Assembly (NCBI GenBank): GCA_905234475.1
Contig: CAJOHX010000005.1
Span: 1 to 64,000 of the forward strand
DNA length: 64,000 bases
Direction of reading: 5' to 3'
From: an uncultured Bacteroidales bacterium
GTDB taxonomy: Bacteria; Bacteroidota; Bacteroidia; Bacteroidales; UBA932
A model generated the notes under the pieces. That model was not told the origin of the DNA and made no database searches. It was given only the letters and a program-made list of their open reading frames with translations. Positions 51,435-63,965 of the stretch are shown here, one piece after another. Made by a program: the position numbers and the translations under genes. Position 1 is the stretch's first letter. Each line of letters opens with the position of its first letter.

Positions 51435-51448
51435 CCCAAACGTCAGTG

Positions 51449-52129
51449 ATGGATATCGAACATTTCTACATAGACGAAGGTCAGGGCGAGCCGCTGATCC
51501 TGCTGCACGGCAACAGCGAGAACTGCGACTATTTCGCGGGGCAGATCACGGAGTTCGCCCGGCATTTCCACGTATATGCCCTGGATACCCGGGGGCACGG
51601 GCGGACGCCGCGGGGTACTGCGCCATTCACCATACGCCAGTTTGCCGACGATTTGCTGGGCTTTATGGACGCGCATGGCATTGCCAAAGCGCATATCCTG
51701 GGATTCTCGGACGGCGGCAACATCGCGATGATCTTCGCGATAAAGCACCCGGAGCGGGTGGACCGGCTGATTCTCGACGGCGCCAACCTGGATACGAAAG
51801 GCGTGAAGCGCTCCGTCCAGTTCCAGATCGAGCTGGGCTACCGCTTCGCGAAATTGTTTGCCGCGAAAAGCGAATCGGCCCGGAAGAATACGGAGATGCT
51901 CGGACTGATGGTCAACGACCCGAACGTTCGGCCGGAGGAGCTCTCGCAGATTCAGGCCAGGACGCTGGTCATTGCCGGTACCAAAGACATGATCAAGGAA
52001 GAACACACCCGGCTGATTGCCTCATCGATTCCTGACTCGCAGCTTGTCTTCATTGAAGGCGACCACTTCATCGCAAACAAATGCGCGGAACCCTTCAACC
52101 GGGCCGTGCTGGAATTCCTTCAATCCTGA
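51449..52129 (+). CDS. Alpha/beta-fold hydrolase
   Basis: 226 residues, cytoplasmic. Oxyanion motif LLHGNSENCDYF, nucleophile elbow LGFSDGGN with Ser87, acid Asp ~179 in VIAGTKDMI and His ~205 in EGDHFIANKCAEPFN, so the triad is complete. The GFSDGG elbow groups it with small esterase/2-hydroxymuconate-hydrolase-like proteins. The track uses a GTG one codon earlier; ATG was preferred. Shares the palindromic control region with the divergent dehydrogenase, so both may respond to one signal. The nitroreductase gene follows with its own promoter. Confidence 0.84.
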   Translation: MDIEHFYIDEGQGEPLILLHGNSENCDYFAGQITEFARHFHVYALDTRGHGRTPRGTAPFTIRQFADDLLGFMDAHGIAKAHILGFSDGGNIAMIFAIKHPERVDRLILDGANLDTKGVKRSVQFQIELGYRFAKLFAAKSESARKNTEMLGLMVNDPNVRPEELSQIQARTLVIAGTKDMIKEEHTRLIASSIPDSQLVFIEGDHFIANKCAEPFNRAVLEFLQS

Positions 52130-52836: not shown

Positions 52837-52868
52837 AGAAAGGGAGGCCTTTGCGGGCCTCCCTTTCT
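52837..52868. terminator. Bidirectional terminator between nitroreductase and higA
   Basis: AGAAAGGGAGGCC and GGCCTCCCTTTCT make a perfect 13-bp stem around a 6-nt loop, with A-rich and T-rich flanks on either side. It serves both convergent genes. Confidence 0.85.
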
Positions 52869-52883
52869 AATTATTGGGACAGG

Positions 52884-53249
52884 TTAATTGCTTAGGATGA
52901 TTGCGGGGGAGATGTTGAGCTTCTGATAGATCTTCTTGGCAGTCTTCAGGGTCGGCTCTGCTCGTCCCATGAAATAATCGTTAACCCGGGAAGGGCTGAC
53001 TTCGAGCAGTTTGGCGAGGTCCTTCTGGCTGAGCCCCAGCTCGTGCATCCTGAGCTTGAGGACTTCCCTGAGGCTCGGCTCGCCGATGTCGAAGACTTCT
53101 TCGGAGTAGTCGGCGACAAGGTTCGACAGCAGCTCAAGTTCGATGCTTGCCGGGTCGTTCCGGGGAGTCGTGTCGTTGACAAAGGGTAGAAGCTGCTCTA
53201 CCCTTTGTATGGCCCATTCATACTGCTCCCTGGTAGTGATCCGGGTCAT
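52884..53249 (-). CDS. HigA-type antitoxin / helix-turn-helix regulator
   Basis: 121 residues. An N-terminal helical part (ITTREQYEWAIQRVEQLLPFVNDTTPRNDPASIELELLSNLVADYSE) typical of the longer HigA antitoxins, then an XRE helix-turn-helix (~65-105; LKLRMHELGLSQKDLAKLLEVSPSRVNDYFMGRAEPTLKTAKKIYQKL). In the family it neutralises the HigB mRNA interferase and represses its own promoter. Here it is third in the operon, its ATG overlapping the stop of an exported-protein gene (ATGA) instead of directly following the toxin gene. Confidence 0.85.
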   Translation of the reverse strand: MTRITTREQYEWAIQRVEQLLPFVNDTTPRNDPASIELELLSNLVADYSEEVFDIGEPSLREVLKLRMHELGLSQKDLAKLLEVSPSRVNDYFMGRAEPTLKTAKKIYQKLNISPAIILSN

Positions 53250-53644
53250 TCTATTTCCATCCGTTTCGCCAGGTAGACTTCTCCGAGCTCATTCCATTTG
53301 GCGTTGGAGCGGGCGGCGTAGAAACGCTTGCCGTCGAGCTTGTTGACCAGGAAGTTCTCCTCGGTCTTGAGGGAGTCGGGGACGTGGCAGTAAGCGAAGA
53401 TGAAGTTCTCGAGCAGCGCGGCGCGCAGCTCGGGATAGTCCTCGATGGCCTTCGTGCAGGCCGCGAGGTCGGCGGCCATATTGAGCTGGTCGTAGCCGGA
53501 GGAGATCTCCACAAGCTGCTTGAAGGTGTCTTCTGCAAGCTGTTCGCGCCCGGGGGCGTAGCGTGCGTTACATCTGTCCTGTGCAAAGGCGGCTCCGGCG
53601 AGGAGAACAAGGGAAACGAAGAGGGTGATGGATTTTTTAAGCAT
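53246..53644 (-). CDS. Small exported protein inserted between HigB and HigA
   Basis: 132 residues with a strong type I signal peptide (MLKKSITLFVSLVLLAGAAFAQ). The mature part is predominantly alpha-helical with three cysteines (DRCNARY, LAACTKAI, FAYCHVPD) and no domain I recognise. It starts 25 nt after the toxin-like gene and overlaps the antitoxin gene by 4 nt, so translation of the antitoxin is coupled to it. A secreted protein has no obvious place in a type II toxin-antitoxin operon; either the operon captured it or it forms a third component. Confidence 0.7.
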   Translation of the reverse strand: MLKKSITLFVSLVLLAGAAFAQDRCNARYAPGREQLAEDTFKQLVEISSGYDQLNMAADLAACTKAIEDYPELRAALLENFIFAYCHVPDSLKTEENFLVNKLDGKRFYAARSNAKWNELGEVYLAKRMEIE

Positions 53645-53669
53645 GGCTGTAGTTATTTATGGATTAGTA

Positions 53670-53936
53670 TTATGCAGGTGTGGCGGCCAGAGACCGGATG
53701 TTGATGAGTTGGATGGTGAAATTGACGACGACGACGAGCTGATGGCGGTTGCCGAGTATGCCGAAAGCGTACTGCTGGTCCCCCATGCAGCTGACGTCCG
53801 CGAAGCTGCCTTTCATGTCTGCGAAACACGTCCACTGGCTCTTTTTGACGACGGCAGCCCACTCCTGGAGGGCCGTTTTGGTCTCCGGGTGCTCGCCGAT
53901 GTACTCCTTAAGAGGCTGTTCCGTGAAGATTCGCAT
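53670..53936 (-). CDS. HigB-like toxin with altered C-terminus
   Basis: 88 residues. The N-terminal part MRIFTEQPLKEYIGEHPETKTALQEWAAVVKKSQWTCFADMKGSFADVSCMGDQQYAFGILGNRHQLVVVVNFTIQLINIR follows the HigB mRNA-interferase family closely. After INIR the family normally continues RF(V/I)GTHxxYDK; here the frame reads SLAATPA and stops. In the -1 frame the DNA gives VSGRHT, which resembles the lost segment, so a one-base deletion is likely. The toxin may therefore be weakened or dead. TACCTTTG ends 4 nt before the ATG. Confidence 0.75.
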   Translation of the reverse strand: MRIFTEQPLKEYIGEHPETKTALQEWAAVVKKSQWTCFADMKGSFADVSCMGDQQYAFGILGNRHQLVVVVNFTIQLINIRSLAATPA

Positions 53937-53940
53937 GGCC

Positions 53941-53984
53941 CAAAGGTAAAAAGAAAATTTTGAATTACAAAAGAAAATCTTGAA
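53941..53984 (-). promoter_or_regulatory. hig promoter with duplicated 16-bp operator
   Basis: Minus-strand -7 box TACCTTTG (53941-53948) and -33 TTTG (53968-53971) with 19-bp spacing. Two direct repeats, AAAAGAAAATTTTGAA (53949-53964) and AAAAGAAAATCTTGAA (53969-53984), differ at one base and are 20 bp apart. One fills the spacer and the other covers the -33 element, as expected for autorepression by HigA. Confidence 0.6.
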
Positions 53985-62355: not shown

Positions 62356-62898
62356 ATGGCAAAGATTTATGATTTCAAAGCCCTGAACAACAAGGGCATC
62401 GAGGTAGACCTCGCACAGTATGAAGGGAAGGTCCTTCTCATTGTCAACACCGCCTCCAAGTGCGGCTTCACCCCGCAGTATGACGGACTGGAAGACCTTT
62501 ATCAGAAATATAAGGACCGGGGACTCGTCATCCTTGGCTTCCCCTGCGACCAGTTTGCCCACCAGGAGCCCGGCTCAAACGAGGAGATTGCGGAGTTCTG
62601 CCGCATCAACCATGGGGTCACTTTCCCGCTGATGGCCAAAATTGAAGTCAACGGCGAGAACGAGCATCCGGTTTATGGCTACCTCAAGTCTGTCGCTCCG
62701 ACGGAAGAGTACAAGGGCCTTAAGGGAAAAGCGACCCGCACCATGCTGAAGGGGCTCAGCAAGAGCGCCAAAAAGGACAGCGACATCCTCTGGAACTTCA
62801 CCAAGTTCCTGGTCAGCCGCGACGGCTCCGTGGTCAAGCGCTTTGCGCCCGTGGCCGAGCCCGTTTCTTTCGAAAAGGACATCGAGGAGATGCTGTAA
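62356..62898 (+). CDS. Glutathione peroxidase family protein (cytoplasmic)
   Basis: 180 residues without signal peptide. Thioredoxin-like fold with peroxidatic Cys36 in VNTASKCGFTPQYDGLE, GFPCDQFAHQEPGS (a second Cys that can act as resolving residue) and the WNFTKFLV motif with the catalytic Trp-Asn. It reduces organic hydroperoxides, in most Cys-type bacterial members with thioredoxin instead of glutathione. No selenocysteine codon. Its stop overlaps the MarR start (TAATG). Controlled by the double operator upstream. Confidence 0.92.
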   Translation: MAKIYDFKALNNKGIEVDLAQYEGKVLLIVNTASKCGFTPQYDGLEDLYQKYKDRGLVILGFPCDQFAHQEPGSNEEIAEFCRINHGVTFPLMAKIEVNGENEHPVYGYLKSVAPTEEYKGLKGKATRTMLKGLSKSAKKDSDILWNFTKFLVSRDGSVVKRFAPVAEPVSFEKDIEEML

Positions 62899-63350
62899 TG
62901 GACGGTCGCTTCAAACTGGACAACCAGCTCTGTTTCCGGCTGTATACCGCCTCGCGTCTCATCACGCAGGCGTATCATCCGCTGCTGGCCGAACAGGGAC
63001 TGACCTACCCGCAGTACCTGGTGCTCATGGTGCTGTGGGAGAAGGATGCCCAGCCGGTCAATGACATTGCCAGGCGGCTGATGCTGGAGACCAACACCGT
63101 CACGCCGCTGCTCAAGCGGATGGAGGCTGAAGGCATTCTGACCCGCACCCAGGGAAAGAAAGACGCCCGGCAGATGATTGTGAAACTGACGCGAAAGGGG
63201 AGGGACCTGCAGGACAAACTGATGCGTGTCCCGGAGACCGTCGGCAGCGCCGTCCTCTGCGAAAGCGTCACGCCCGAGACGGTCCCGGGCCTGTTTACTA
63301 TGCTGGATAACATCATCAATCAATTGAAAAACAAATCAGAAAACAGTTAA
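62898..63350 (+). CDS. OhrR-type MarR family transcriptional regulator
   Basis: 150 residues. The N-terminus LDNQLCFRLYTASRLITQAYHPLLAEQGLTYPQYLVLMVLWE is the OhrR signature, including reactive Cys12 and the tyrosine residues that bond to it upon oxidation. A winged-helix follows (VNDIARRLMLETNTVTPLLKRMEAEGILTRTQGKKDARQMIVKLT). OhrR represses peroxide-defence genes and releases DNA when its Cys is oxidised by organic hydroperoxide. The operon here replaces the usual Ohr thiol peroxidase with two glutathione-peroxidase-like genes. Translationally coupled to the first peroxidase. Confidence 0.92.
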   Translation: MDGRFKLDNQLCFRLYTASRLITQAYHPLLAEQGLTYPQYLVLMVLWEKDAQPVNDIARRLMLETNTVTPLLKRMEAEGILTRTQGKKDARQMIVKLTRKGRDLQDKLMRVPETVGSAVLCESVTPETVPGLFTMLDNIINQLKNKSENS

Positions 63351-63353
63351 GTT

Positions 63354-63965
63354 ATGTCACTTGGAAGAACCCTTTTGCTCGTTGGCGCCCTTCTTTTCGC
63401 CTTCAGCTGCACGAACCAGTCAAATACCATCTACCGGTTCAAGACTGTGTCCAACGACGGTGAAGACGTGAACTTCGCCGACTACAAAGGCAAAGTTCTG
63501 CTGGTTGTCAACACTGCATCAAAATGCGGCTTCACACCCCAGTATGACGGCCTGGAAGCCCTCTATAAGAAATACCGGCACCAGGGTCTGGTCGTCATCG
63601 GTTTCCCCTGCGACCAGTTCGGCCACCAGGAGCCCGGCTCCGACGAGGAGATCGTGGAGTTCTGCCGGCTGAATTACGGTGTCACCTTCCCGCTGATGGC
63701 CAAGTCGGACGTGAACGGAGAGAACGCGAATGAAGTGTTCAAGTGGCTGTACTCCGAGAAGCCCTTTGCCGGATGGGGAGACAGCGAGACGGGACAGTTC
63801 ATGGACGGGATGCTCTCCCGGAATGATCCGGACTATGCCTCCAATCCAGACATCAAGTGGAATTTCACCAAGTTCCTGATTGACCGCAAGGGCAGGGTTG
63901 TTGCCCGCTTCGAACCCGTCGTTACTCCCGCGGAGCTTGAGGCGGAAATCGAAACGCTTTTATAA
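63354..63965 (+). CDS. Glutathione peroxidase family lipoprotein (exported)
   Basis: 203 residues. Lipoprotein signal (LLLVGALLFAFSC), then a peroxidase domain with Cys58 in VNTASKCGFTPQYDGLEALYKKY, GFPCDQFGHQEPGSDEEI and WNFTKFLIDRKGRVVARF. The two peroxidases of the operon are strongly similar over the core, so a duplication followed by gain of an export signal is likely. This copy protects the envelope; how it is re-reduced outside the cytoplasm is unknown. 3 nt after the regulator's stop. The last 35 bases of the window after it show no feature. Confidence 0.9.
   Translation: MSLGRTLLLVGALLFAFSCTNQSNTIYRFKTVSNDGEDVNFADYKGKVLLVVNTASKCGFTPQYDGLEALYKKYRHQGLVVIGFPCDQFGHQEPGSDEEIVEFCRLNYGVTFPLMAKSDVNGENANEVFKWLYSEKPFAGWGDSETGQFMDGMLSRNDPDYASNPDIKWNFTKFLIDRKGRVVARFEPVVTPAELEAEIETLL

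Follow-up and report, generated by a model that had tools for sequence, protein, structure and literature searches.

The window analysed here, a 64,000-nt stretch of DNA from an uncultured gut Bacteroidales bacterium, carries on its minus strand (53936–52884) a HigB-family open reading frame of 88 aa, a signal-peptide protein of 132 aa (designated Exp) and a HigA-type repressor of 121 aa. This three-gene order and the ATGA overlap by which exp runs into higA (53246–53249) had been described in an earlier sequence-only reading of the locus, and both were found, with all three ORFs on the minus strand. Two further points go beyond that description: the arrangement is kept in five genomes, and its HigB is shortened and lacks the most conserved C-terminal motif. 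We favour, with somewhat better than even confidence, the explanation that a disarmed higBA pair has been co-opted as a HigA-autoregulated expression cassette for the exported protein. To a further proposal, in which the TA module has become a stable switch that regulates itself and drives an exported stress protein while the disarmed pseudo-toxin stays on as a regulatory partner of HigA, we give slightly less than even weight. Coordinates of the individual features are collected in Table 1.

Table 1. Features of the higB–exp–higA locus in the window and the evidence on which each assignment is based
Feature	Position	Strand	Evidence or remark
higB-like gene, 88 aa, RelE-type HigB fold without the C-terminal RFIGTHxEYDxI motif	53670–53936	minus	PF09907, E 5.6e-15; AlphaFold match; C-terminal loss relative to 22 ordinary HigBs
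exp, 132-aa all-helical putative exported protein between higB and higA	53246–53644	minus	ORF; four orthologues in the same position; AlphaFold; dN/dS
higA-like gene, 121 aa, C-terminal HTH	52884–53249	minus	HTH_3, E 9.5e-14; 28 of 30 HigA-invariant positions; dN/dS 0.02–0.12
Operator repeat 1, TTCAAGATTTTCTTTTGTAA, containing -33-like TTTTG	53965–53984	minus	20-nt lag repeat
Operator repeat 2, TTCAAAATTTTCTTTTTAC, overlapping the -7 box	53946–53964	minus	20-nt lag repeat
Bacteroidetes -7 element, TACCTTTG (TAnnTTTG)	53941–53948	minus	19 nt after TTTTG, 4 nt before higB ATG
Hairpin 3' of higA, GGGAGGCC-CGCAAA-GGCCTCCC-TTT	52842–52866	minus	Read directly from the sequence

A scan of the genome collection returned two close relatives (L004 and L005) and one distant relative (L006). 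The complete higB–exp–higA order was present in five of approximately 400 genomes sampled from the genus (G000, G090, G232, G354 and G112), and this conservation in five separate genomes, together with the dN/dS ratios, rules out decay or an assembly artefact. Across the orthologue sample, which consists of five cassettes from closely related genomes, dN/dS was 0.02–0.12 for HigA, the most constrained of the three cassette genes, 0.07–0.24 for Exp and approximately 0.10–0.34 for HigB when calculated over the whole gene. A chance insertion in one genome, a possibility which the sequence-only reading had allowed for, is contradicted by the order kept in five genomes and by purifying selection on all three genes. 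Downstream of higA, the hairpin listed in Table 1 likely serves as a bidirectional terminator common to higA and a convergent nitroreductase gene.

Homologues of Exp were detected by profile search in 11 of 400 genomes of the genus. All close homologues (~ 74–86% identity to the protein in the window) were located between higB and higA; those at ≤ 48% identity all lay outside TA loci. The latter included stand-alone genes outside higBA in G316, G291 and G209 (42–48% identity to the window Exp) as well as two genomes, G177 and G119, in which the Exp domain is the N-terminal part of a longer protein (~ 510–525 aa); the match in G040 was weak and partial. The fusion proteins (510–525 aa; L015:391–1923, minus strand, and L016:1501–3078, plus strand) had no Pfam match anywhere along their length. 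Outside the genus, a single weak match was obtained in 393 genomes sampled across the order, and no homologues were found in plasmids, phages or viral contigs. The expectation that Exp homologues would repeatedly lie between higB and higA genes was, in other words, borne out for the close homologues and failed for the distant ones, a split by identity which points to one capture event followed by retention.

HigA homologues (E ≤ 1e-10) were present in 128 of 400 genomes of the genus, and 22 of the best 25 HigA loci outside the cassette gave an alignable full-length HigB preceding higA, providing the set of ordinary HigBs used below. Cassette HigAs formed one clade (support 99/92), as did cassette HigBs (support 100/100), and in both trees the nearest neighbour was the ordinary higBA of G136. 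Since both trees place the cassettes beside the same ordinary pair, higB and higA derive from one module, and the arrangement is most simply explained by a single insertion of exp into a normal higBA. A genus search centred on G136, which drew essentially the same genomes, produced nothing new in the way of intermediates with an intact HigB and exp.

A neighbourhood with gpx adjoining the cassette is common to G354, G112 and G232, and this exact gpx-adjacent arrangement is absent from the window and from G090. An alpha/beta hydrolase gene (~ 72% identical) was also seen beside the cassette in the window (51446–52129, plus strand) and in L018 (6449–7141, plus strand) and L019 (6196–6903, plus strand); it is found on different sides in the window, G354 and G112, suggesting a common neighbourhood that has been rearranged.

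The Pfam match of the HigB-like protein (55.8 bits, cut-off 27) is confined to profile positions 2–64 of 74, and its AlphaFold model, although of low confidence (mean pLDDT 62), gave as best matches the E. coli/Shigella HigB structures 5ifg, 6kml and 5ycl (E 7e-5). In each of the 22 ordinary HigBs of the genus, which are 97–98 aa long, the C terminus takes the form R[FW][IV]GTHxxY..., in which R, G, T, H and Y do not vary. The cassette HigBs are 86–88 aa long and end in RSLAATPA, RSLGTTTA or TNLIHN; the C-terminal RFIGTHxEY motif is absent from every one of the five cassette proteins and present in every one of the 22 ordinary ones. Columns shared by 21 or more of the 22 ordinary HigBs were treated as conserved. 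Of these, the aromatic/glycine core (W26, W35, F38, F45, F58, G62, L67 and F73) was kept in 5/5 cassettes. D49, N53, V57, N59, H86 and Y89 were lost in all five, G84 and T85 in four, and R66 and R81 in three each. A catalytic role of the invariant HigB residues is presumed from their invariance and from general knowledge of RelE-type toxins, and the loss of the motif leads us to infer that the toxicity of cassette HigB has been lost. Two cassette sublineages carry different HigB tails: in an alignment-dependent comparison, a 23-nt difference in length puts a common 3' sequence into different frames. This suggests that the two sublineages lost or remodelled the tip independently, or did so more than once.

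The distribution of amino-acid changes between HigB residues 1–48 and 49–82 was 15:19 in the cassettes and 105:44 in ordinary HigBs (Fisher p = 0.005), so that the fast-evolving half of cassette HigB is the RNase half and not the helical half, the reverse of what is seen in ordinary HigBs. The N-terminal half of the cassette protein remains constrained (dN/dS 0.08–0.2), and the stem leading to the cassettes measured 0.49 in the HigB tree versus 0.20 in the HigA tree. Cassette HigB has apparently been retained, but not for its RNA-cleaving part, although the continuing selection on it could alternatively mean an activity that is altered but retained. Another contig of G000 (C47:1472–2067, L062) carries an ordinary higBA whose HigB matches 74 of 74 Pfam positions, and an apparently intact TA pair coexists in that genome with the disarmed one.

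In contrast to HigB, HigA keeps its canonical features, and the 28 invariant positions counted in Table 1 are kept in all five cassette proteins. The paired direct repeats which the sequence-only reading had placed in the promoter are there (53984–53965 and 53964–53946) with a spacing of 20 nt, and they exceed what is obtained with dinucleotide shuffles (p = 0.006 for the window; 0 of 1000 shuffles for the five cassettes together). The TAnnTTTG element, corresponding to the Bacteroidetes TTTG/TAnnTTTG promoter consensus (PMC7366714), is conserved in 5/5 cassettes. Among the 22 ordinary higBA loci, a lag of 20 gave the top summed match of all lags from 12 to 31 (268 versus 213 for the next), which on sequence grounds marks the 20-nt repeat as the control element that ordinary higBA loci of the genus generally share. 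With both HigA and this operator repeat conserved, the regulatory part of the module looks active, as had been proposed. In the window (53936–53948), only 4 nt separate the -7 box from the higB ATG, and the distance is similar in the other four cassettes; with the box this close to the start codon, the operon mRNA may be leaderless or nearly so. In B. thetaiotaomicron, 5' UTRs under 10 nt account for only ~ 3.7% (PMC7366714).

The junction between exp and higA is an ATGA overlap in the window and in G090 and a gap of 2–3 nt in the other three cassettes. At the resolved higB–higA junctions of ordinary pairs in the genus (a few were unresolved), ATGA-type (-4) overlaps are common and most of the others are gaps of 3–6 nt. 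The overlap had been interpreted as coupling antitoxin synthesis to translation of the exported protein; as it is usual in ordinary pairs and was taken over by exp, the translational coupling of HigA appears to be inherited and not a new link to export.

The N terminus of Exp is a textbook signal-peptide sequence when read by eye (MLKKSITLFVSLVLLAGAAFA/QD), and the protein is predicted to be exported. Its AlphaFold model shows an all-helical mature domain with a pLDDT of ~ 90 over residues 31–100, and Cys86 is invariant in 10 of 10 aligned homologues. No family was found for it in Pfam, NCBIfam or PADLOC, no SecB match in the Pfam or PDB searches, and no fold match below E = 1 against the PDB and viral models. 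A possible assignment to PepSY_2 (PF13670) was rejected, as the score of 21.5 bits was below the cut-off of 24.3, the match fell mostly on the signal peptide, and the model is all-helical and not alpha/beta. Genomic context connects exp and its relatives with gpx and marR: in G209 the stand-alone exp homologue (L014) starts inside the end of marR, which in turn overlaps a glutathione-peroxidase gene, a gpx–marR pair is found beside the cassette in G354 and gpx in G232 and G112, and a gpx–marR–gpx group is situated 8.4 kb from the cassette in the window. This linkage provides a weak hint of a role for Exp in peroxide or envelope stress. The group in the window (62356–63965, plus strand) is a tight array of gpx, marR and a lipoprotein-like gpx, with a 1-nt overlap of gpx and marR; the slot after marR is the one taken by L014 in G209.

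Compared with known systems, the locus is a variant of HigBA rather than a separate kind of system, and the arrangement is real and conserved. Like type II HigBA modules (PF09907; 5ifg, 6kml, 5ycl), it combines a HigB fold with a C-terminal-HTH HigA, in higB-first order, with an operator over the promoter and an ATGA-type junction. Both family members are present, but a third gene separates them, and the cassette further departs from such modules in a HigB without the C-terminal motif and in evolution concentrated in the RNase half. The ordinary higBA pairs of the genus (e.g. those of G136 and G134) supply the nearest relatives of its HigB and HigA, share with it the 20-nt repeats over the promoter (predicted HigA sites), and have a HigA start that overlaps the preceding stop or falls within a few nt of it; they differ in having no inserted gene and in HigBs ending RFIGTHEEYDRI....

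The M. tuberculosis HigB1–HigA1–SecB-TA toxin–antitoxin–chaperone system (TAC), in which the antitoxin bears a C-terminal chaperone-addiction extension (PMC5105189), resembles the cassette in joining HigBA to a third operon gene with a conceivable link to export. The third gene of the cassette, however, encodes a helical signal-peptide protein positioned between higB and higA which is not SecB-like, the toxin is probably disarmed, and the 121-aa HigA can be aligned over its full length with the ordinary HigAs of the genus and has no such extension. In PADLOC, the component A model of PD-Lambda-2 matched the HigB-like protein (9.8e-18) and the component B model matched HigA at positions 7–118 of 402 only; unlike PD-Lambda-2, the cassette is without the rest of component B, and Exp matches no PADLOC model. 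The ubb/higBA locus of B. fragilis was considered as a parallel and set aside as a different case, ubb and higBA being alternative alleles of one site (PMC5705921). No exported protein between higB and higA was found in the papers searched.

Several other explanations were weighed against co-option. The locus might be an anti-addiction remnant, in which HigA is kept because it neutralises HigB toxins from higBA modules that arrive from outside or already reside in the genome, HigB is a vestigial folding or binding partner and exp a passenger. The strong constraint on HigA, the abundance of higBA in the genus and the ordinary full-length pair elsewhere in the same genome would all be expected in such a case, but purifying selection acts on exp too and every one of the five cassettes has retained it, and the genome's other HigA is only a distant sequence relative (E 8e-26 versus 8.5e-78), making cross-neutralisation unlikely a priori; we regard this explanation as rather improbable. 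Somewhat less probable still is that exp only exploits the higBA promoter, with HigB slowly decaying and no regulatory logic involved. A captured gene merely riding on the promoter would look similar to the cassette, distant Exp homologues do occur outside TA loci, and HigB has evolved faster than in ordinary modules, as its longer stem indicates; set against this are the preserved N-terminal half of HigB, the conserved operator and the fact that neither higB nor higA has been lost from any cassette.

The locus could also be an active three-part TA system, in which the shortened HigB is still somewhat toxic or acts on another target and control involves the exported protein. HigB does remain an open, selected frame with a recognisable fold in five genomes, but the invariant GTHxxY tip is broken, the polar residues N53 and N59 are gone throughout, the tails differ between the two sublineages, and it is the RNase half that evolves fast. 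The absence of the C-terminal motif from all five HigBs speaks against a working TA module with an exported member, and we consider such a system unlikely. That the module senses secretion capacity, with export of the middle protein gating antitoxin synthesis, was suggested by the signal peptide together with the ATGA coupling in the window and G090, and is in our estimation very improbable: the same overlap is an ordinary higB–higA junction, three of the five cassettes are gapped, there is no SecB-like partner or chaperone, HigA is of ordinary length and without the extension found in TAC, and nothing ties the level of HigA to export. With the toxin probably disarmed, the antitoxin would have nothing to gate.

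Co-option as a regulatory switch, also raised in the sequence-only reading, accounts for the data better than an ordinary type II module does. Under this explanation, a normal higBA of the genus would have acquired exp once, between higB and higA, and the toxin would afterwards have lost its RNase tip, while HigA, the operator and the remainder of HigB would have been retained. HigA, probably with the disarmed HigB as a partner or co-repressor, would bind the 20-nt repeats that lie in tandem across the promoter. A fall in HigA, for example through proteolysis under stress, would let the operon fire and the exported protein be made; HigA, being translated last, at or next to the exp stop, would then shut the operon again.

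There is a long argument as to whether chromosomal TA modules are kept for their toxicity or can be domesticated as plain regulators. The five genomes described here represent a natural experiment in this respect, in which the toxin has lost its RNase part, its non-catalytic half has been kept along with the repressor and the operator, and a cargo gene sits inside, and the idea of a toxin serving as a regulatory partner without toxicity becomes directly testable with one cloned operon.
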